Shown here: one piece after another, positions 1,118 to 61,845 of the stretch
Layout: the number at the start of each line of letters is the position of its first letter
Numbering within the stretch: the stretch's first letter is position 1
Origin: Cyanobacteriota bacterium
GTDB lineage: Bacteria > Cyanobacteriota > Cyanobacteriia > PCC-6307 > Cyanobiaceae
DNA: 61,845 nt
Assembly (NCBI GenBank): GCA_026389265.1
Contig: JAPLIE010000081.1
Coordinates: 1 to 61,845, forward strand
Reading direction: 5' to 3'
The notes under the pieces: generated by a model
Database searches by the model: none
Told to the model about the DNA's origin: nothing
Seen by the model: only the letters and a program-made list of their open reading frames with translations
Translations under genes and position numbers: made by a program

Positions 1118-4100
1118 CTAGAACCGGAAAAACACCCGCAGTTGCGTCTGCCAGGAGCCCTGGGTGTCGACCGAGGCCTCCAGGTTGAGCTGCTCGGAGG
1201 CCTTGTAGTTCACCGTCACCTGGGGGGGGATATCGGAGCGGTTGGGGGCGGCCAGCACCGAGGTGCTGATGCGGTCGGTGAGGTCGTAGCCAATCTCAGA
1301 ACCGAGCACCAGCTGGGGCGGCACCCTGCGGGAGCGCCGCTGCTGGGTCGACTGGATCGCGGGGGTCACATAGGTGGGATAGATGGCCAGGCTCACCCGC
1401 TGGCCGAAGGCATCGGTCAGGCTGGAGAGAAGCGGCGAGAGCAGCGACTGGCCCAGCACCGTGGCCAGGGCCGTGCCAGCACCGCCACCGCTGAGGCCGG
1501 CCAGGGAGTTGCCGCCAATCAAGGCCACCAGCCGGTCCTGGGGCAAGGGGGGGCTGCTGCGCAGCTTCAGGTTCTCGGCGATGCGATCGGCCGGACCGCT
1601 CACACTCACCGTGACCAGGATCAGGTTGAGCTGGTTGAGGGAGGAAAACCCTCCCTGGGCCTGCTGCTGGGTCAGGGCCAGGGAACTGGCGGCCGCATCG
1701 GAGAGGCCGGAAGGGGCGATCACATTGAGGCTGTCGGCGATGCGGGTGCGCAGGGCGATGTCGAGGTAGGGAACCAGCCCCAGCGACGGCGTGAAGATCG
1801 CCACGTTGGGAGCGTCGGGATCGAGGCTGAAGCTGGTGGTGAACAGGTTGAGCCGACCGCTGAGCAGTTTCACCACCCCGGAGGCCCGCAGGCTGGGGTC
1901 GAGGCGGCCGCTGATCCGCAGGCTGCCGCCGGTCTGGAAGTTGGCCACGTTCGGCACCACCACCCGCAGCTCCGGTCCCAGGCCGATCCGCAGGCCATCG
2001 AAACTCAGCCAGGGAGCCCGGGGAATCGCCTCCTCCAGCGAAGCGGCTGTGGAAGAGGCCACATCGGGCCCGAGCAGCACCAGGGGCTTGCGGAAGTCCC
2101 ATTTCTTCTCCACGAGCTCGGGCACACTGGTGGGGCGCGCCTTCTGATGGGAGGCCGGCTCCGCCTCGGCGATGGTCGCCGGCCGCACGTTGATGCTGCC
2201 GTGGCCGATCGAAACATCACCCCCCAGACGGGGAGCCAGCAGGCTGCCGGCCAGGGTGAGGCGGCCCTGGGCCTGGGCGTTGATGCGGGACACGGCGAAG
2301 GGGATGGCCGTCAAGTCGATGGCCAGGCCGGTGTCGCTCTCCAGGGGTCGCACCAGGCCCAGCCTCCCCTGGCCGCGGATCCGGCCTCCGCGTCCGACCC
2401 GGGCGACTAAATCCTGCAGCACCAGCTGCTGGGAATCAAAGAGCACCATCGCCTGCAGCCCCTGCAGGGTCTGCCAGATGAAGCGGCATTCACCATTGCG
2501 CAGCCGCAGGAAGCCGTTGGCGATCGGATCGGAGAGGCTGCCGCGCACCAGCAGCTGAAGATCGGCGCTGCCCCGTTTCCAATCGATGGTGCCGGAGCCG
2601 GCGGCCAGGCGGGTGAGAAACAGCAGGCCGTCATCCCGGCTGGCGATGCGCACCTCCAGGCCTGAGCTGCCGGGGTCGAGGGGAACGGTGCCGGCCAGAT
2701 CCACGCTGTTGGCAGCCCCCGCGGCCCGCAGGGAGAGATCGAGCTTCAGCGCCTGGCCCCGCAGGTCCACCCGGCCCCGCTGCAGAGCCAGTTCCTCGGA
2801 GCCCAGGCCAGCCTCCTGCAGGGCCAGTTCCACCGAAAGACTGGGCTCGCCGCCTCCGAGTCCGTAGCGGCCGCGGGCCTGCAGCGTGCCGCGCAGATTG
2901 GCCGGCACGGGGGTGAGCAGCGCCAGGAGGGAGAGCGGCAGGTGCTCCAGCTCGAACGTGCCCTCACCGCCGCGGAGCGGCCCGGCCAGCTGGAAACGGA
3001 AGGGTTCGCGGGCGATGCTGCGGTCGCGGTCGCTGGCATCAAGCCAGAGGTTGCCGCGACCCTGCAGCTCGGCCCTGGCATGGCGGAGATCGGCTCCGCT
3101 CAGCAGCAGGTCGGCATCGAGAGCGAGCTGAAGCCGCTCCAGCCTTTCGGCCCTGGATGCGTTGGCCAGGGCGAGATCCCGTAGCTCCGCCAGCTGGCGC
3201 GCCTCGGCCAGGACGGCCAGCTGCTCCTCGATGCTGCGTCCGAGGGTGTCGATCGCCAAGGTGCCCAGATCCTCAGCCCGGCCTCGGGAGGGGAGCGGGC
3301 GGCCACGCCAGAGGTCGTAGGCGGCCAGCAGCTCGCGCAGGAAGGGCGCGCTGATGCCGCGGGCCTGGACCCGGGCCTGGAAGGGCCCATCCTGGCGACC
3401 CTCCAGTTGGGCAGCGATTGAACCACCCACCAGGGTTTCAAGTTGCCCCCTCAGGCGATAGCGCCGATCTGCATAGGCCACGCTGGCGCGCAGGCTGCGG
3501 CCCGCCAGACGAAGGAAGCCCGGATGGTCCACAGCCAGATCGCCGTGGACACTGAGGGGCCGCAGGGACAGATCGCCCTGGCCACTGAGGACGCCCTGCA
3601 AGCTGCGGAGCCGGGACCTGGCACCGAGGGCCACGGCCAGGCCCTGGAGCGGGAACGATCGGGCCTGCCAGCGATAGCGGCCGGCGGCGGCGCGCTCAGG
3701 GCCGTTGAAGGCGGTGAGCTTCAGGCTGCCGCCACTCCGTTCCAATCCGAGGGCCAGGGGCTGCCAGGCCTGATCAAAGCGGGCCTCGAGTCGGCCCGCC
3801 GGGGCAGGCAGCTCCGCCATCAGTCGCAGGCGAGCCCCATCGGTAGCCCCCACCAGGGTGCCGCTCCAGATCTCAGGGAGCCGCAACGGCCCACCGCCGG
3901 GGTTGCGGAGCCGCAGGCGTAGATCCGGCTGCAGTCCCCGGAGGGGGCCGCGCAGAGTGCCATCGGCGTCGAGACGGCCCGTGAGAGTTGTGCCGACGAA
4001 ACGGTTCAGGCGGGAAAGGGGATAGTCGCGGAGCTGAATCCGGCCGCTCAGATCGCCCCACGTCGCACCCCGACCCCGCACAAGGGTGAGCGGCAAGCTG

Positions 4101-5548
4101 GCGGAAGCCAGCAGGTGGTCGCTGCGCAGCTCGGTGAGCTCTAAGCGGCCCTCGCTCCAGACCAGCGACACCGCCGCCGTGCCGATTAGAGGGAGATCGC
4201 TCTGGCTTGTGGAGGCCTGCAGACGGGGAGAACTCAGCAGACCATCCGCTCGGAAACCTCCCTGCAGGGCCCGTTGCCGTAGCCAGGGGGGCAGGCCCTG
4301 GGCCTGAGGGAACTCGGACGGCTCCAGCCTCCAGTCACCGCTGAACGCCAGCTGGCGGGTCAGGCGGCCCTGGGCCTGCAGCCGCGACCGGCCGAGAAAC
4401 GCCTCCAGGCGATCTACACCCACGCCGCCACGGATCCAGTGCCCGCTCAGGCGGCCCCGCAAGGGAAGGGTGGCCAGGGGACTGCCGGCGGGGGGGCGGG
4501 CCATCAGATCAAGGGCGAGCCGTCCATCGGTGGCGGTGCGACCGGCAATGCGGCCTCCCCAGGTGCCGAACCTCCAGGGGGAGTCCGCCAGGACAAGCTT
4601 CTGCTCCTGACAGCTCCAGGCCAGACGGTCGCTGGCAAGAGGGCGCTCCAGGGCGGGTGGCTGCCAGCTGGCCTGCCGCACGATCAGCGCGCCCCGGCAA
4701 CTGGGGCGTCCGCGATCGACGCGGAAGCTCACCTGCCCCTCCGCCTGGCCACGCAGGGTTCCCTTCACCGGCAGCAGCGGCTCGAAGGGCGCGGCGGCGA
4801 AGCGGCGGGTGGCCAGATCGACCCGCCAGAGGTTGCGTTGCCAGTTGCCGTCACCTTCCAGCCGAGCCTCACCCGGCTCTCCCGGGGCGGCCACGTCCGC
4901 CCGGAAGCGGATGCTGCGTTCATGGAGCCGCAACTGGGCTCCCCCCTGAAACTGAAAGGCCAGGGGCTTGCCCTGGGGTGTGACATTCCAGATCCGCAGC
5001 TTTCCGCTCTTGGGGACCCGGATCCGCAGATCCAGACGCGGTGGCTCCCCCCCGGGCTTCAGCCGGCCCAGCACCCAAAGCCAGCCCTTGCTGTTGGGCC
5101 GCAGATCCACCACCGGTTCCCGAACATCCAGATCGAGCACCAGGCCGCGCTGTCGCCAGCTCGCCAGCGGGTGCAAGCGAACCTGGATCTCCTGAGCAGT
5201 GATGGTGGAGCCATCCTCTGGACCGGCCCGGAAGCGGCTGGGGCCGACCCGCAGCCCTTCGGGACCGATGCCCCGATAGGAGCCCAGATCAAGGGGGTGG
5301 CCCATGACATGGCCCACGAGCTGTTCGATGCGGGGGCGCCAGCGGTCGTAAGCCCGCTCGAGCAGCGGATTGAGACCAAAGCGCAAGGCGAGGCCCCCAC
5401 CCACCAGCAGGCCGCCGGCCAGGAGTCCTAGGGGCAGGAGACACCCTGCACCGCATCCGGATCCGCGGGGTTCCGGCGGGCTGGCTGCGATGCGTTCGGT
5501 GATGCGTTCTCTGATGCGTTCTGTGTTGCGTTCTTGCCGTTCGGGCAT
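1118..5548 (-). CDS. tamB: TamB/DUF490-family translocation and assembly module protein
   Basis: A 1476-residue protein with a short Arg/Glu-rich N-terminus, one membrane segment at about residues 34-56 (leucine/glycine-rich), then a very long repetitive beta-strand region typical of AsmA/TamB proteins. The C-terminal 350 residues (LSFDGLRIGLG, SGRLNLFTTSF, LALIGGNSLAGL, ending LRVFFRF) match the DUF490 domain. TamB proteins span the periplasm and are implicated in outer-membrane protein insertion or phospholipid transfer; cyanobacteria use homologues in envelope biogenesis. ATG start at 5548, divergent from ycf51, with 60 bases between them. Length and ends are normal for cyanobacterial TamB. 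Confidence 0.85.
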   Translation of the reverse strand: MPERQERNTERIRERITERIAASPPEPRGSGCGAGCLLPLGLLAGGLLVGGGLALRFGLNPLLERAYDRWRPRIEQLVGHVMGHPLDLGSYRGIGPEGLRVGPSRFRAGPEDGSTITAQEIQVRLHPLASWRQRGLVLDLDVREPVVDLRPNSKGWLWVLGRLKPGGEPPRLDLRIRVPKSGKLRIWNVTPQGKPLAFQFQGGAQLRLHERSIRFRADVAAPGEPGEARLEGDGNWQRNLWRVDLATRRFAAAPFEPLLPVKGTLRGQAEGQVSFRVDRGRPSCRGALIVRQASWQPPALERPLASDRLAWSCQEQKLVLADSPWRFGTWGGRIAGRTATDGRLALDLMARPPAGSPLATLPLRGRLSGHWIRGGVGVDRLEAFLGRSRLQAQGRLTRQLAFSGDWRLEPSEFPQAQGLPPWLRQRALQGGFRADGLLSSPRLQASTSQSDLPLIGTAAVSLVWSEGRLELTELRSDHLLASASLPLTLVRGRGATWGDLSGRIQLRDYPLSRLNRFVGTTLTGRLDADGTLRGPLRGLQPDLRLRLRNPGGGPLRLPEIWSGTLVGATDGARLRLMAELPAPAGRLEARFDQAWQPLALGLERSGGSLKLTAFNGPERAAAGRYRWQARSFPLQGLAVALGARSRLRSLQGVLSGQGDLSLRPLSVHGDLAVDHPGFLRLAGRSLRASVAYADRRYRLRGQLETLVGGSIAAQLEGRQDGPFQARVQARGISAPFLRELLAAYDLWRGRPLPSRGRAEDLGTLAIDTLGRSIEEQLAVLAEARQLAELRDLALANASRAERLERLQLALDADLLLSGADLRHARAELQGRGNLWLDASDRDRSIAREPFRFQLAGPLRGGEGTFELEHLPLSLLALLTPVPANLRGTLQARGRYGLGGGEPSLSVELALQEAGLGSEELALQRGRVDLRGQALKLDLSLRAAGAANSVDLAGTVPLDPGSSGLEVRIASRDDGLLFLTRLAAGSGTIDWKRGSADLQLLVRGSLSDPIANGFLRLRNGECRFIWQTLQGLQAMVLFDSQQLVLQDLVARVGRGGRIRGQGRLGLVRPLESDTGLAIDLTAIPFAVSRINAQAQGRLTLAGSLLAPRLGGDVSIGHGSINVRPATIAEAEPASHQKARPTSVPELVEKKWDFRKPLVLLGPDVASSTAASLEEAIPRAPWLSFDGLRIGLGPELRVVVPNVANFQTGGSLRISGRLDPSLRASGVVKLLSGRLNLFTTSFSLDPDAPNVAIFTPSLGLVPYLDIALRTRIADSLNVIAPSGLSDAAASSLALTQQQAQGGFSSLNQLNLILVTVSVSGPADRIAENLKLRSSPPLPQDRLVALIGGNSLAGLSGGGAGTALATVLGQSLLSPLLSSLTDAFGQRVSLAIYPTYVTPAIQSTQQRRSRRVPPQLVLGSEIGYDLTDRISTSVLAAPNRSDIPPQVTVNYKASEQLNLEASVDTQGSWQTQLRVFFRF
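5489..5536. repeat. Four imperfect 12-bp tandem repeats inside the tamB 5' coding end
   Basis: The unit GATGCGTTCTST occurs about four times in a row. On the minus strand it encodes the N-terminal NTER-IRER-ITER tetrapeptide repeat of TamB. The 12-bp period keeps the frame, so copy-number change would only lengthen or shorten the cytoplasmic tail. Confidence 0.7.
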
Positions 5549-52317: not shown

Positions 52318-53109
52318 ATGCCCCGCCCTTCACGCTCCTTACCAGCAGGGCATTCGTTTCACATCACGCTGCGTTGCAATAGTCGGAAGTTTTTGATTGC
52401 CAAACGCATCAGGCGTGATGTGCTGCTGGTGGTTTTAGAGAAAGCAAAGCAGAACTACTCATTTCGCCTGTATGGAGTGTGCCTGATGGCTAATCACATC
52501 CATCTACTGATCAAGCCAGATGATGCCAGCCAACTGCCCAAACTGATGCACTGGGTGGGGTGGTACGCCTCCATGCTGCTCAACCGCTTTACAGGGCGGT
52601 GCGGGCACTTCTGGGAGGCGCGCTATTACTCCACCCCTATCGCCCCAGAAGACCACCAAAGGGCACTCAATACCCTGCGTTACATTCACGCCAATCCAAA
52701 GGCAGCAGGAGTGCGTAAAGGGTTTTATGACCCCTACAGCAACTACGGGCACTACAGCAGATTAGAAGCAGACGGATTGAGTGACTGGCACCATGCCTTT
52801 CTGCAACTGGAACCCACACTCACTGGATGCTCCAAGCGGTACATAAACTTCTGCAAGACATACCGCTGCAAATCAAAACCAATCAAAACCAGACAATGGG
52901 GCAGCAAGTTGATTGCGGTGCTCCAAAGCACTGCCACCAGAGAACAAGGCAACAGCAAACGCCATAGGCACTGCATTGGTCAGCAATCACTGCCGATCAA
53001 CCTGCCTACGCTGCAGCAACTCCCCGAGCACTGGCAGCACATTGCCCAGCAATTACACCATTGCAATGCACCACGCTGGAATGACAACGAATGCCTGAAT
53101 AGCAGTTAG
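52318..53109 (+). CDS. REP-associated tyrosine transposase (Y1 HUH, IS200-like)
   Basis: A 263-residue protein from ATG 52318. The Y1_Tnp core shows the N-terminal RAYT strand (HSFHITLRCNSRKFLIAKR), the HUH motif ANHIHLLIKP, and a downstream helix WVGWYASMLLNRFTGRCGHF then WEARYYSTPI, where a Tyr would be the nucleophile. RAYTs process REP palindromes and are usually single-copy and domesticated. GC content is clearly below its surroundings. I saw no repeated REP palindrome near it. The 282 bases before it (52036-52317) hold no gene. Confidence 0.85.
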   Translation: MPRPSRSLPAGHSFHITLRCNSRKFLIAKRIRRDVLLVVLEKAKQNYSFRLYGVCLMANHIHLLIKPDDASQLPKLMHWVGWYASMLLNRFTGRCGHFWEARYYSTPIAPEDHQRALNTLRYIHANPKAAGVRKGFYDPYSNYGHYSRLEADGLSDWHHAFLQLEPTLTGCSKRYINFCKTYRCKSKPIKTRQWGSKLIAVLQSTATREQGNSKRHRHCIGQQSLPINLPTLQQLPEHWQHIAQQLHHCNAPRWNDNECLNSS

Positions 53110-56452: not shown

Positions 56453-58362
56453 CGGCGCCGGCTTGGGGGAACGGAGCACCCAGGCGATGGACTGCGGCTT
56501 TCGCAGCCGGAGCTGCCGCTCTCCTGGCGGCGCAACTGGTGGCGCTCCTCTTGAACCTGCTGCTCGCGCGGATCAGTGTCGATCAGCCGCTGGAGAGCCG
56601 TGAGCTGATCGACTGGGGCTGGCGCTGGGGCGGCGTGCTCGCGGTGGCCCTGGCCACCGGGGCTGGCTTGGGGGGAAGGCCGCCGGCCGGTCCCCGATCC
56701 TCCGCCCGGGTGGCGGCAACCATCGCCGCGCTGACTGTTTTGATCTGCCTGGTGGCCATGGGCTTGGCGGTGGCTGCCGTTCGCCTGGGTGTGTGGGGCC
56801 AGGGCTGGGGGCTGCCCAGCCGTTCCACCTACGCCGCCCAGATCGCCGCCCTGCTCGCGGCGCAATGGAGCGGTTTGCCCGGAGCTGCCCTCGGTGCCTG
56901 GCTGCTCTGGCGTGGGCGCCTGAGGGCCACCATGCCCCCCCTGCGGGCCCTCCCCCGCTGCCGGCCCAACCTCGATCGGCTCACGCGGCTGCTGACGCTG
57001 GTGATCGCCGTGGCGGTGATGCTCAATGGCCTGCCCTTCTGGGCCCGCCGGATTGGCCTGCTAGAGCGGCAGGCCTACCGCCAGGATCTCGCCCGCTTTT
57101 GCACAAGCCCGGTGCAGCCCTGGTGGCTGCCGGCCAGCTGCCGCCCCCATCGCATCGACACGACCAGCCCAGAGCGGCGGGTGTGGCGACTTGATCCCGC
57201 GCGTCTCTACCAAATCTCACCGCTGGAGGTGGGGCTCAAGGGGCTTCGCTACGGCGTGATCGTGCTGCTGATGATCGCTTCAGCCTTTCTGCTGATCGCC
57301 CGCTGGTCTCCGCCACCCCAGACGCTCCTGCCCCTGCTGCCCTTGATCGTTTCCACCCTGCTTTCGGCGGCGATCAGCCTGCCGCTTGATGGGGCCGCTT
57401 TCACCCTGCTGAGCGGGATCGGCAGCCTCTGGATTCCCCTGGCGGCGCTGGCGACCTGGCTCACCACCCCCCGGAGGCTCCAGATCCTGGCGGATGGGGC
57501 GGCGAGCTTGGTGGTGCTGCAGCTGCCCTTTCTACTGCTGGAGGCGATGCGGGGGCTGCCGCTGCCGTTCGGCGGAACGGCGGGCCCCTGGCTACCTACC
57601 CGGCTTTCGGGGATCATGAATCAACCCAACACCCTCGGCGGACTGCTGGCGGTGAGCGTGGCGTTCTGCCTGTGCCTCAGCCAGCGCCGCTGGCAACGCT
57701 GGCCTCTGCTGGCCCTGTCTCTCCTGATCGCCATCCTGGCCCGCTCCGGAGGTGGAGTTGCTGGGCTGTCGCTGCTGGCAGCTGGCCAGATTCTCAAGAA
57801 CCGCCGCCCCAGGCCTGGCCAGCTGCTGGCCCTTCTTCTGGCATTCGTGCTGTTCACCGCCGCCCTTCCCAGGCTGTTGGGGCGACCACAGCTGCTCGAC
57901 TCCCCCGCCGGGCGGCTGCGCACCGTGCGGATCTGGCTGCATGCTCCCCATACCCCGCAGGAATGGCTGCTGGGCTATGGACTGGCCAGACAAAGCAGTC
58001 AGAGTGCAACCATCAGCCCGTCGATGAGCCAAGCCCCGCCGAAACGGGGGCCTGATCCCGATGGCATGCCGCTGTTGCTGCTGGCCCAGGGGGGCCTGCT
58101 GGCCCTGGTTGCCTTCTATGGCTTGCTGGCCTGGTGCTTTGTTCAGGATCCACCGCTTCGCCTGTTCTGGTTTGTGCTGGTCATCACCAGCCTCAGCTTG
58201 AGGGTCACCGAGGTGTTCCCCTTCGGGATCTGGATGGCGGTAGCTGCTTCGCGCTCCCTGGGGCTGAACAGCCGCCCCGGCCCTCGCTGGATCAGCTGGC
58301 CGCGCCGCTTCGCCCTGGGGAAGATTGGAGTCTGTTTCAGGCCGGCGGCGCCCAGGGATTGA
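56449..58362 (+). CDS. O-antigen ligase / polysaccharide polymerase-like membrane protein
   Basis: A 637-residue protein from GTG 56449, overlapping the beta-helix gene stop (GTGA). Twelve or more membrane helices are seen, with a large periplasmic loop. LPTRLSGIMNQPNTLGGLLA and the later WLLGYGLARQSSQSAT with DGMPLLLLAQGGLLALVAFY are typical of the Wzy/WaaL (O-antigen_lig) pattern. Its last 10 codons (RPAAPRD) read through the antisense of a crtH fragment, so the natural C-terminus was probably replaced. It should polymerise or ligate a surface polysaccharide. Confidence 0.8.
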   Translation: MTAPAWGNGAPRRWTAAFAAGAAALLAAQLVALLLNLLLARISVDQPLESRELIDWGWRWGGVLAVALATGAGLGGRPPAGPRSSARVAATIAALTVLICLVAMGLAVAAVRLGVWGQGWGLPSRSTYAAQIAALLAAQWSGLPGAALGAWLLWRGRLRATMPPLRALPRCRPNLDRLTRLLTLVIAVAVMLNGLPFWARRIGLLERQAYRQDLARFCTSPVQPWWLPASCRPHRIDTTSPERRVWRLDPARLYQISPLEVGLKGLRYGVIVLLMIASAFLLIARWSPPPQTLLPLLPLIVSTLLSAAISLPLDGAAFTLLSGIGSLWIPLAALATWLTTPRRLQILADGAASLVVLQLPFLLLEAMRGLPLPFGGTAGPWLPTRLSGIMNQPNTLGGLLAVSVAFCLCLSQRRWQRWPLLALSLLIAILARSGGGVAGLSLLAAGQILKNRRPRPGQLLALLLAFVLFTAALPRLLGRPQLLDSPAGRLRTVRIWLHAPHTPQEWLLGYGLARQSSQSATISPSMSQAPPKRGPDPDGMPLLLLAQGGLLALVAFYGLLAWCFVQDPPLRLFWFVLVITSLSLRVTEVFPFGIWMAVAASRSLGLNSRPGPRWISWPRRFALGKIGVCFRPAAPRD

Positions 58363-58455
58363 GCCCCAGATCAACGCCGATGCGATGGGCGCAGGCGAAG
58401 CCGCTGAAGGCCACGGCGTTATGGCCGCTGATGCCGGTGCGGTTGAAAGGCATGG
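58340..58455 (-). pseudogene. Duplicated 3' fragment of crtH
   Basis: The minus strand reads MPFNRTGISGHNAVAFSGFA then CAHRIGVDLGLNPWAPPA, nearly identical to the CrtH C-terminus at 60275-60440 (NAVAFSGFACAHRIGADLGL, NPWALPV). It lacks 13 residues (LYCVGDSCFPGQG) present in the full gene. It overlaps the 3' end of the polymerase gene on the other strand. It has the same orientation as crtH, so the two form a direct repeat around the sulfotransferase gene. Confidence 0.85.
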
Positions 58456-58551
58456 AGGGCCTGCCGAAGCCGGGTCCGTTCATCGACACCATCTTCCGCC
58501 ATTGAGAGTGATTCCTAGAACACGGCATCAACTGAAATGCCAGCAGCTCCG

Positions 58552-59883
58552 TTAGCCGTTGGCAACGCGAAGCACTACGCGATGGATGACGGCGAAAAGA
58601 TCTAGAACTTCGGACGGGCTCAAGCCGGCGTGAGCTAAAGCACTAAGCTGTTGAGAGATCGGAATGTAATGGGGCATGAAAGCAGAGCCGCCTGCTGAGA
58701 AGTAATCGAAGTAGCCGAGCAGATGATGGCGATGAAAGCGTTCGCAGACGCCGGTTTGACAAGTTGCAGCTTGGCATTCCTCCACAATAGCTTCGTGGAT
58801 TTGTCTGGTAATAGCAATTCGAGAATGACTAGCGCTGCCAAGAAACATGAGCAACAGTAAAGATGCTACTGGCATCGATTCGTCCAGATACAACCCCGAA
58901 GATGCCGGACCTTCTTGAAAAAATTCTACAAGTTTTTCGTAAGCAATTGCAGCCTGTTCACTCGTGAGAAAGTGGAATCGAATAGCCTCATCGCAACAGG
59001 GTTTTGGTTGCAAACTAAGCTTCTCGCCTTCAGGCAGGCGACGATTAATCTTGTCGACAAAAGGTTGCATATTTAGCTTGATCAGCTCGACAGACTGCTT
59101 GGGAAATTTAAAATTTATCGCCGGAAGGCCAGGAAGTCCATTGACCAAGGCGTCGGAAACTTTCCCACCAGCTTCAGCGCCATAAACAGAATTGATCAAT
59201 AGCATTAACTGAAATTCAGCAGCATCTAAGGATCTGTTAACAATTTCGTTCTTGGCAATATGGCAAGCGGCCAAGTCATCTACATTCATGACCCCAAGAA
59301 CTCGAGATCCAATATTACGACCAACAGCTGAGTAGTTCAAGACATTCACCTTAACCTCCAATTCCTCCAAGTCTTCCAGGATTGCCAAGGCTTGGGTTGC
59401 GTGAGACTCCCGAAAATCCTGTTGAACAAGAAAGTCCATAAAACTCATGGCAGCACCATGTCGCTTAACCCACTGCTGATATGTTGAGCAAAACATATCA
59501 AAAGGGTCTCTTATGGTTAGAATAATCTCGAAATCGCAATATTCCTTATAGTTCTCAAATCCCGAGAAAAATTGGTCCATATGCCAAAAGATGATCTCAC
59601 TAGAAAAGATATATGCCTTGTAATCGGATTGCGCTTCCATTGCTTGAGCAACGCAATAATCAAGCCAACCATCAGTTATGCTTTGCGAAGATATATTGCC
59701 CGAACTGATAAACCCTTTCTTGGCATCCTCAAAGCCTGGGGCGAAAGGATAGAGGATATTGGCAGCTTCGAGATCGGCTGTGGCATTAGCCAAGACAGAT
59801 TGTATGCTTGAAGTGCCAGTTTTTCCGTGGCCGATATGGAGATAAATCTTCTTTTTCGGAGAAGTCTTGTTGAGAATATTCAT
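58552..59883 (-). CDS. Sulfotransferase-like protein
   Basis: A 443-residue cytosolic protein. The N-terminus (IYLHIGHGKTGTSSIQSVLA) is the P-loop that binds the 5' phosphosulfate of PAPS in sulfotransferases, and ILTIRDPFDMFCSTYQQW is the later 3'-phosphate motif with Arg and Ser. It probably sulfates a polysaccharide or lipid. Codon use and GC (near 44 percent by eye) are unlike every gene around it, so it looks recently acquired. ATG start at 59883. The polymerase operon lies on the other side, on the opposite strand. Confidence 0.7.
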   Translation of the reverse strand: MNILNKTSPKKKIYLHIGHGKTGTSSIQSVLANATADLEAANILYPFAPGFEDAKKGFISSGNISSQSITDGWLDYCVAQAMEAQSDYKAYIFSSEIIFWHMDQFFSGFENYKEYCDFEIILTIRDPFDMFCSTYQQWVKRHGAAMSFMDFLVQQDFRESHATQALAILEDLEELEVKVNVLNYSAVGRNIGSRVLGVMNVDDLAACHIAKNEIVNRSLDAAEFQLMLLINSVYGAEAGGKVSDALVNGLPGLPAINFKFPKQSVELIKLNMQPFVDKINRRLPEGEKLSLQPKPCCDEAIRFHFLTSEQAAIAYEKLVEFFQEGPASSGLYLDESMPVASLLLLMFLGSASHSRIAITRQIHEAIVEECQAATCQTGVCERFHRHHLLGYFDYFSAGGSAFMPHYIPISQQLSALAHAGLSPSEVLDLFAVIHRVVLRVANG

Positions 59884-60274
59884 GGAATATACGGCGCTAA
59901 GCTTGATCTATTGAGGCGCGTTACCACATCAACAAGCCAGCCGTCAGAAGTCGCGCGAAGCATGCTAAGCCTCCCAGGCTTCACTGTAATTTGGTAGTCG
60001 GTCTGGCAGTCATGCAACTTATAGCGCTAATGGATGCCAATGTGTTCTGGATTGCATTACACTATGTTTTGAACCACGGAGCGAGTGCGTGGCAACATGT
60101 AGCACATCTCCGTCGACTTAGCTGCTCGCTGGGAAACGGCGCTGCCATGAGGGCATCTCCTCCGGCGAACAAGAAGGTCCGACCTCCACGAGCTGTGGTT
60201 GGTGATTCGCAGGATGGATCAAGGTCAGTCAGCAACGCTCCTCAAGGAAGAGCTCGGTGAAGGCGTCTATCGCC
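59884..60274. other. Gene-free stretch between sulfotransferase gene and crtH
   Basis: No convincing gene is seen. The AT-rich first half (to about 60070) matches the composition of the sulfotransferase gene and may hold its promoter; the second half is typical GC-rich sequence. A 89-codon plus-strand frame at 59991 has no family resemblance and loses order after residue 50. Confidence 0.45.
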
Positions 60275-61845
60275 TCAGACGGGCAGCGCCCAGGGGTTGA
60301 GGCCTAGATCGGCACCGATGCGGTGAGCGCAGGCGAAGCCGCTGAAGGCCACGGCGTTCAGGCCCTGGCCGGGGAAGCAGGAATCGCCCACGCAGTAGAG
60401 GCCGCTGATGCCGGTGCGGTTGAAGGGCATCGGCAGCAGGCCGGGCAACCGCATCGCCGGGATCGGGCCGTAACTACCTCCTATGCGGCCTAGGAAGCGA
60501 CGGTGGCTTCGGGGGGTGCCCACCTCCCGGTGGGTGATGGCGCCCGCCAGGCCGGGCAGGATCACCTCAAGCCGGGCGATCAAGCGGTTGGCATCGGCTT
60601 CTTTCTTGGCGGCATAGGTCGTGGGAGAAAGCCCTTGCCAGGCCTCCATGGAGGAGGGCGTGAAGGTGTGCACGATATGGTGGCCGGCCGGGGCCAGGGA
60701 GGGATCGAGCAGCGAGGGCATCGATACAAACACCGTGCCCTGCTCGGCCTCGAGATCCTCCCAGCGCTCCAGCAGCAGGTGGTGCACGTGGGTGCCCTCT
60801 GGGATCAAATCTGCCCTCACGCCGAGGTGCAGCGAGAGAAAGGAGGGCGAGGGCCTGTAGCGGCGCCGCCAAGTGCGTTCGGCGGCAGGAGTGTTGGCCC
60901 CATCGATCAGGTTTTGGCCGCTCACCGTATTGGACGGATTCTTTGCCCCGCCCCCAGGTCGGGGGCCTGCGCTATCGGGATCCCCGAAGGTGTCCCAGCG
61001 GGTGGCATTGCTCACTACGCGACGGGCTCGCAGCTCTTCGCCACCGGCAAGCCGAACCCCCACCGCCCAATCTTGCTCCAGCAGCACTTTCACCACCCGG
61101 GAGCGGTAGCGGATCGCGCCGCCATGGCGCTCCAGCCCCGCCACCAGTTTCTCGGCGATCACCCCCACGCCTCCCTTGGGGTAATTGATGCCGCCGGCAT
61201 GGCGATCGGAAAACACCATGCCCGCGTTGATCATCGGCGTGCGATCGGCGGGCATCACGCTCCAGCAGAAACACTCCATGTCGATGAAGCGCAGCAGGTC
61301 GGGGTCCTGGATGTGGGCGCGGGCCACCGATCCCACGTTCACCGGCAGCCAGCGCGCCAGGCCCAGGCAGGCCAGGGGGGCCTTGAAAAACACCTTGGCC
61401 AGGTAAGCCGGATCCTCAAGCGAGAGCAACGGCATCGCATCGAGGCAGTTGAACACCTGGGCGCAGGTGTCGTAGAAGGCGCGGATGCCCTTGGCTTCGT
61501 GGGGGAAGCGGGCGGTGAGATCGGCGATGAAGCGCTCGTAGTCGCGGTCCACGGCCACGTTGAGGCCGCCGGGGAGGTGGTATTCGAGCTGGGCCGGATC
61601 GGGGATGGTGGTGCAGTGCTCGCCCACATCAGCCAGGGCGCGGGTGAGCAGGTTGGTGTGGCCCTTCTGGCCGAAGCCGAAGATCATCGAGGCGCCTACA
61701 TCGAAGGTGTAGCCCGCGCGCCTGAAGCTGCCGCCCGAACCCCCTGGGATCAGGTAGCGCTCCAGGACCAGCACCTTCGCCCCCTTGGCGGCCAACTGGC
61801 TGGCGGTCACCAGACCGCCGATGCCGCTGCCGATCACGATCACAT
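60275..61845 (-). CDS. crtH: Carotenoid cis-trans isomerase, 5' end beyond the window
   Basis: A 523-codon C-terminal-to-near-N-terminal section of prolycopene isomerase. The FAD motif IVIGSGIGGLVTASQLAAKG is at the visible start and only the first few codons are missing. CrtH features GGSGGSFRRAGYTFDVGASM, PKGGVGVIAEKLV and FNRTGISGLYCVGDSCFPGQG are present. It converts poly-cis lycopene to all-trans lycopene before ring closure. Odd point: an extra 25 residues (SAGPRPGGGAKNPSNTVSGQ-) sit in a loop near residue 285, absent in the family as I know it. Confidence 0.93.
   Translation of the reverse strand, partial: VIVIGSGIGGLVTASQLAAKGAKVLVLERYLIPGGSGGSFRRAGYTFDVGASMIFGFGQKGHTNLLTRALADVGEHCTTIPDPAQLEYHLPGGLNVAVDRDYERFIADLTARFPHEAKGIRAFYDTCAQVFNCLDAMPLLSLEDPAYLAKVFFKAPLACLGLARWLPVNVGSVARAHIQDPDLLRFIDMECFCWSVMPADRTPMINAGMVFSDRHAGGINYPKGGVGVIAEKLVAGLERHGGAIRYRSRVVKVLLEQDWAVGVRLAGGEELRARRVVSNATRWDTFGDPDSAGPRPGGGAKNPSNTVSGQNLIDGANTPAAERTWRRRYRPSPSFLSLHLGVRADLIPEGTHVHHLLLERWEDLEAEQGTVFVSMPSLLDPSLAPAGHHIVHTFTPSSMEAWQGLSPTTYAAKKEADANRLIARLEVILPGLAGAITHREVGTPRSHRRFLGRIGGSYGPIPAMRLPGLLPMPFNRTGISGLYCVGDSCFPGQGLNAVAFSGFACAHRIGADLGLNPWALPV

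Follow-up and report, generated by a model that had tools for sequence, protein, structure and literature searches.

According to the portion of PMC3240628 considered here, the homologous end was partly duplicated in the majority of the integrants tested (109-950 bp; 14 sequenced), and this was ascribed to a single crossover; homology-facilitated illegitimate recombination (HFIR), in the same portion of that paper, predicts a deletion in the target. The locus described here, from a freshwater picocyanobacterium, looks like an ordinary gene-acquisition scar, and one unusually easy to read. It lies in a 61,845-nucleotide (nt) stretch of a Cyanobacteriota bacterium of the Cyanobiaceae (hereafter the window), which is contig C130 (JAPLIE010000081.1) of genome G000 (GCA_026389265.1; 214 contigs, 95.41% complete, 3.02% contamination). 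Near the end of the window, a shortened copy of the 3' end of crtH, the carotenoid isomerase gene, is found in the same direction as crtH itself, with an AT-rich gene between the two. The best explanation, with a chance just short of even, is additive recombination in crtH, in which incoming DNA would have brought a crtH 3' end together with the AT-rich gene and would have stranded the resident tail.

The likeness to the single-crossover integrants of PMC3240628, as far as that portion of the paper goes, would consist in one crossover in a homologous gene end and foreign DNA between two copies of it. A repeat of 156 nt, of which 117 are left, compares with the 109-950 bp given there. The case in the window differs in being natural and old, with alleles that have diverged and signs of decay. 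The same footprint would be expected from HFIR provided that a crtH tail came in with the foreign DNA, and the single-crossover and HFIR routes are not separable in the window.

Repeat of the crtH 3' end and the junction in the closest relative

An initial annotation of the window had reported a fragment of the crtH 3' end in the direction of crtH, with a 39-nt deletion and an AT-rich gene intervening, and this description was borne out. The direct repeat consists of positions 58337-58426 against 60275-60364 (90 nt, 86% identity, E 2.7e-22; start-to-start spacing 1938) and continues in 58423-58453 against 60400-60430 (31 nt, 97%, E 7.5e-7). Given these E values, the repeat is not due to chance. 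The fragment (117 nt, against the 156 nt of crtH at 60275-60430) corresponds to the last stretch of crtH and includes a stop like that of crtH, and the longest exact tract common to both copies is 32 nt. The net gap of 39 nt, which the aligner splits around two junction bases, is a multiple of three; the deleted segment is bordered in crtH by a repeated GGCC, and such a deletion would be a usual product of slippage. No second crtH 3' end was found elsewhere in the organism's own assembly. The intact gene scores above the cut-off of the NCBIfam equivalog for this isomerase (Table 1).

The closest relative found, designated G023, is taken to be the metagenome-assembled genome Cyanobium sp. LBMAG_Cyanobacteria_epi.bin3, which is also the nearest named relative by crtH (93% protein identity). 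In the window, a pair of genes of polysaccharide type, coding for a beta-helix protein and a putative membrane polymerase or ligase, precedes the fragment. In G023 the beta-helix gene (87%) and a remnant of the polymerase gene lie directly beside crtH, and the AT-rich gene is absent. The initial annotation had suggested a comparison of the crtH 3' neighbourhood with that of a relative lacking the AT-rich gene; in G023 the junction is uninterrupted, and window positions 58296-58426 align across it with 90.1% identity over 131 nt. It is apparent from the 41 nt just outside crtH that the fragment side corresponds to G023 (35/41), whereas the flank of the intact crtH stop is unrelated (12/41). Since the flank of the fragment matches the G023 junction, the fragment occupies the position of the crtH end in G023, at the old polymerase/crtH junction. 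By parsimony, the fragment is likely to be the old, resident crtH tail in its old place. An uninterrupted site in a relative without the insert is what a scar of additive recombination requires.

The window ends at the start of crtH, the 5' end of which is thus at the contig end, and the upstream DNA is on contig C93. Positions 5389-11352 of C93 are largely collinear with the G023 DNA upstream of crtH (three blocks, 86-93% identity), so the locus in the window is the same as that in G023. Among 100 fetched loci (20 stretches, one of them from C93, and 80 loci, some contigs being common to the two sets), the polysaccharide-type pair adjoins crtH in the two copies of the G023 contig and nowhere else.

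The initial annotation had also held that the insertion changed the end of the polymerase gene, and the comparison with G023 contradicts this. The polymerase-like open reading frame (ORF) has its stop at 58362, inside the fragment, and its last residues read antisense through crtH in the window and in G023 alike. What remains of the protein in G023 corresponds to amino acids (aa) 1-200 and 633-653, the latter 81% identical; the part matching window 57001-58296 is missing and the frame stops early. As the overlap with the crtH tail is present in G023, which is free of the insert, the insertion did not create the polymerase end.

Origin of the two crtH tails

The fragment was compared with the crtH 3' ends of 81 rows (that of the window and 80 others) at 113 comparable sites, the four junction bases 58421-58424 being left out. 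Its closest match is the crtH of G023 (105/113, rank 1 of the 81 rows), and its own crtH is tied sixth (101/113). At 8 of the 12 differences between the fragment and its own crtH, the fragment agrees with G023, and at the remaining 4 it is G023 that agrees with its own crtH. At crtH position 1533 the base common to the fragment and G023 is found in 6 of the 81 rows. Two of the 4 sites at which G023 agrees with the organism's own crtH are positions 1532 and 1559; there the fragment carries second-position changes where all 81 crtH rows agree, and these changes fit a dead remnant, as expected. A tree of the tails pairs the fragment with G023 (support 91/0, not significant).

The following course of events would account for these observations. 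The ancestor common to the organism and G023 would have had the beta-helix and putative polymerase pair tail-to-tail with crtH (the synteny is seen in the sequences; its ancestral status is by parsimony), the polymerase frame ending a few codons into the crtH 3' end. DNA in which a related crtH 3' end was followed by the AT-rich gene would then have recombined with the resident crtH, by one crossover in the gene, the other side being joined illegitimately or, alternatively, a circle being integrated by a single crossover. The result would be a crtH of full length whose 3' end was imported, a gain of about 1.8 kb, and the organism's own tail stranded beside the polymerase gene, where it would have decayed through the net 39-nt deletion at the GGCC repeat and two replacements at otherwise invariant sites. 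More tentatively, a core carotenoid gene may have acted as the homologous anchor for gene capture, so that crtH would be a hybrid of a resident 5' part and an imported 3' part and the resident tail a fossil that orients the event. The locus illustrates legibly how a picocyanobacterium may gain a gene by way of the end of a conserved one, which serves as anchor, no mobile element being apparent. It also cautions that a gene end seen twice next to an island has not necessarily been duplicated; its wider bearing is slight.

The possible hybrid nature of crtH was considered from the gene itself. The window's crtH and that of G023 are sisters over positions 1-1170 (Shimodaira-Hasegawa-like approximate likelihood-ratio support 98, quick tree). 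In 18 overlapping intervals of 180 columns, G023 ranks first of 80 for the window's crtH in nine, second at 540 and 1350, fourth at 1170, 1260 and 1440, and seventeenth in the last, the last five ranks being 4, 4, 2, 4 and 17. The best mosaic split falls at crtH 1226 and was reached by 2 of 400 shuffles. As proof of import, a mosaic crtH was nevertheless rejected: the statistic was reached by 8 of 30 other close pairs, it is larger with G023 as the focal row (38.7 vs 24.4), and in the 3' part the window's crtH stands with its expected kin. The foreign origin of its 3' end is unproven.

Several results weigh against additive recombination as set out above, the behaviour of the mosaic statistic among them. 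Low ranks of G023 also occur in earlier intervals (7 at 270, and 20 at 810 and 900, in a variable region). In the crtH 3' part, the approximately unbiased (AU) test with 27 rows did not reject a tree uniting the window with G023 (P 0.498), and with 81 rows a tree holding the two together was better than the free quick tree by 19 log units (P 0.801). In the 27-row 3' tree the window's crtH is placed with L100 and L101 (88/71), which are its next relatives in the 5' tree, whereas G023 goes with L116 and L136 (52/86.9). Neither grouping is significant; any recombinant in the crtH 3' part may be G023 rather than the window. The AU test for the fragment with its own crtH did not reject that pairing either (P 0.236). 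The assembly is fragmented and strain-mixed at crtH. Lastly, the 100 fetched loci contained no donor in which the AT-rich gene comes after crtH; the donor may be unsampled. For 7 of the 30 other close pairs (L099-L178), the best break in kinship was at crtH 1328-1402, which is either noise from the conserved tail or frequent recombination at the gene end.

An insertion accompanied by partial duplication had been proposed in the initial annotation. The insertion stands, in that the two crtH tails enclose an insert that G023 lacks and whose DNA is unmatched in the 41 other genomes of the genus; duplication is possible but not favoured. In that account, which we regard as unlikely, the organism's own crtH 3' end was copied in situ upon insertion of the AT-rich gene and the copies then diverged. 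The direct orientation and nearness of the copies agree with it, as do the four differences at which G023 matches the organism's own crtH and the AU result for the fragment. It would, however, require 8 of the 12 changes to have arisen in the working crtH and the other 4 in the dead copy, a split that has a chance of 0.19 at equal rates and of 0.018 if the live copy evolves half as fast, and that is odd because the dead copy would have changed less. Nor does it sit well with the base that the fragment and G023 have in common at position 1533. The 'duplication' is better, though not certainly, read as the stranded tail of another crtH allele. Transfer in the reverse direction, crtH and the AT-rich gene being resident and the polysaccharide-type pair having come from a G023-like source with the fragment as its crtH tail, is a rather doubtful alternative. 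It accords with the 3' groupings of the window's crtH, which its 5' part predicts, and more weakly of G023, and with the fragment and the polymerase end going together as in G023. Those supports are not significant, however, and two events are needed, for the AT-rich gene has no match in the genus and would also have to be an acquisition; moreover, the divergence of the pair from G023 (about 13%) falls within what the C93 flank shows and gives no sign of recent transfer.

An assembly artefact, in which strain-mixed metagenomic contigs were misjoined at crtH, is improbable. The number of contigs and the contamination estimate speak for it, and so does the overlap of C93 11019-11352 with window 61512-61845 within crtH, where 334 nt contain 11 mismatches, all between offsets 79 and 214. 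That they are confined to the middle of the overlap points to a mixture of strains, and variation between strains is the best reading of the break in the assembly. Against a misjoin, the assembly held no other crtH 3' end, the two flanks agree with a single locus, that of G023, and neither the 39-nt deletion nor the private changes of the fragment would be expected from it. Insertion of a mobile element (an insertion sequence, a cassette or a phage-borne gene) is very improbable. The insert is AT-rich and unmatched in the genus, and a Y1 transposase gene is present about 5 kb away; yet no transposase-type match was obtained for the 443-aa ORF of the AT-rich gene or, in NCBIfam only, for an 89-aa ORF in the spacer, and no inverted repeats of at least 20 nt, the shortest length sought, were found at the ends of the insert. 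There was likewise no phage match for the 443-aa protein and no plasmid match for the spacer, the plasmid search being confined to the spacer.

The AT-rich gene and the rest of the insert

The AT-rich gene has a G+C content of 45.1% (45% at third codon positions), and that of crtH is 67.2% (85% at third positions). The initial annotation called it a sulfotransferase gene; 'sulfotransferase-like' is a fair name, profile support is weak and a role in surface sulfation is a guess. The blocks HIGHGKTGTSSIQ and RDPFDMFCSTYQQWVKRHG are kept in all 12 rows of an alignment of the window protein with 11 relatives (of 12 homologue matches, the partial L037 was left out), and these blocks constitute the likeness to the 3'-phosphoadenosine 5'-phosphosulfate (PAPS)-dependent sulfotransferase superfamily (PF00685 and kin). 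In their patterns, HxGxxKTG and R...S.Y.Q.VK, they resemble what we take to be the PAPS-binding motifs, 5'-PSB (5'-phosphosulfate binding) and 3'-PB (3'-phosphate binding). PF00685 was matched weakly by 2 of the 12 rows (best E 0.0049), and the joint profile weakly matched the sulfotransferase 3rnl in the PDB (E 0.051). The window protein itself matched no sulfotransferase model, the weak support coming from relatives or the joint profile only; it had no Pfam match at 0.01 (one, chance-like, at 0.019) and no NCBIfam match at 0.1. A single-sequence search of solved structures returned no sulfotransferase, only prenyltransferase subunits and a third chain at E 0.14-0.76, which were taken as chance, and the structure model from the single sequence was too poor for a fold search (mean predicted local distance difference test score 38.6).

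Relatives of the 443-aa protein share 22-31% overall identity with it, and the C-terminal part is longer in the window protein than in the 11 aligned relatives. They occur in few genomes, namely 9 of 388 at E 1e-6 and 10 of 60 at E 0.001, its own genome being included in both counts. A first scan of the genome contigs with the protein gave no relative, and no Sulfotransfer_3 match was found in its own genome. The proposed link of the AT-rich gene to a polysaccharide operon was not upheld: the gene runs antisense to the beta-helix and polymerase genes, and hence is not in their operon, and is co-directional with crtH, 391 bp after it. At three homologue loci, 10 of 27 ORFs were scanned, of which 4 matched Pfam (two phosphoglycerate mutases, a chaperonin and an NTP-transferase domain), a partial look that suggests no evident polysaccharide cluster. 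Sulfated exopolysaccharide synthesis is known in cyanobacteria, according to the portion of PMC8205485 considered, and such a role is possible for the 443-aa protein.

The 1.82-kb insert DNA was matched in none of the 41 other genus genomes, of which 32 have a completeness of 90% or more and a contamination of 5% or less. Within the left junction, 58478-58499 has a 22-nt match (95%) in several genomes, of which one locus (L078) was read; the frame there holds FIDNIFRF, presumably of ATP synthase beta, and the match was taken as chance. The spacer had only a 23-nt match, in one genome, among 39 other genomes, no DNA match in the 100 fetched loci and none to plasmid DNA. As a gene remnant it was rejected, the one translated match in the 100 loci (E 0.009) being taken as chance. 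It was likewise rejected as a known RNA: an Rfam search of 58200-60500 at E up to 1 gave only a microRNA model (E 0.95), outside the spacer.

Neighbouring genes

The features of the region are listed in Table 1. The polymerase-like ORF has a G+C content of 69%, that of crtH being 67%, and matched nothing in Pfam at 0.01 or in NCBIfam at 0.1. A relative in genome G026 is 68% identical; the conserved part ends near aa 621 and the tail is unrelated, and in that genome the polymerase is on contig C9 and crtH on C48.

Table 1. Features in and around the crtH 3'-end repeat, in window coordinates
Feature	Position	Strand	Remarks
Beta-helix (surface/secreted-type) protein gene, 540 aa	54830..56452	+	PF13229, E 1.2e-5, 25.4 bits, just below the curated cut-off of 25.9
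Putative membrane polymerase/ligase ORF, 653 aa	56401..58362	+	Name guessed from make-up; final codons lie over the crtH remnant
Polymerase-end/crtH-end junction, just outside crtH	58296..58336	.	35/41 against the same place in G023
crtH 3' end remnant	58337..58453	-	crtH-like stop; net 39-nt deletion; 105/113 to G023 crtH, 101/113 to own crtH
Left junction of insert	58454..58551	.	Past the crtH match; no clear relative
AT-rich sulfotransferase-like gene, 443 aa, 1332 nt	58552..59883	-	Motif blocks; weak profile matches
Spacer between crtH stop and AT-rich gene, 391 bp	59884..60274	.	Only a 23-nt match, in one of 39 other genomes
crtH (carotenoid isomerase)	60275..61843	-	TIGR02730, 907.7 bits against a cut-off of 586.9

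The Y1 transposase gene is IS200-like and is situated at 52318-53109, less than 2 kb upstream of the beta-helix gene and about 5 kb from the insert, in a patch of lower G+C content (about 48-54%). In G023 the polymerase gene looks broken, with a large internal deletion and an early stop at about 3998-4600 of locus L049. Elsewhere in the organism's own genome, positions 3001-6430 of contig C116 (loci L086, L090 and L182) contain a further, diverged beta-helix gene (51%), flanked on each side by polymerase-like matches (41-42%). Genes of these two kinds are neighbours in genomes G034 and G203 as well.

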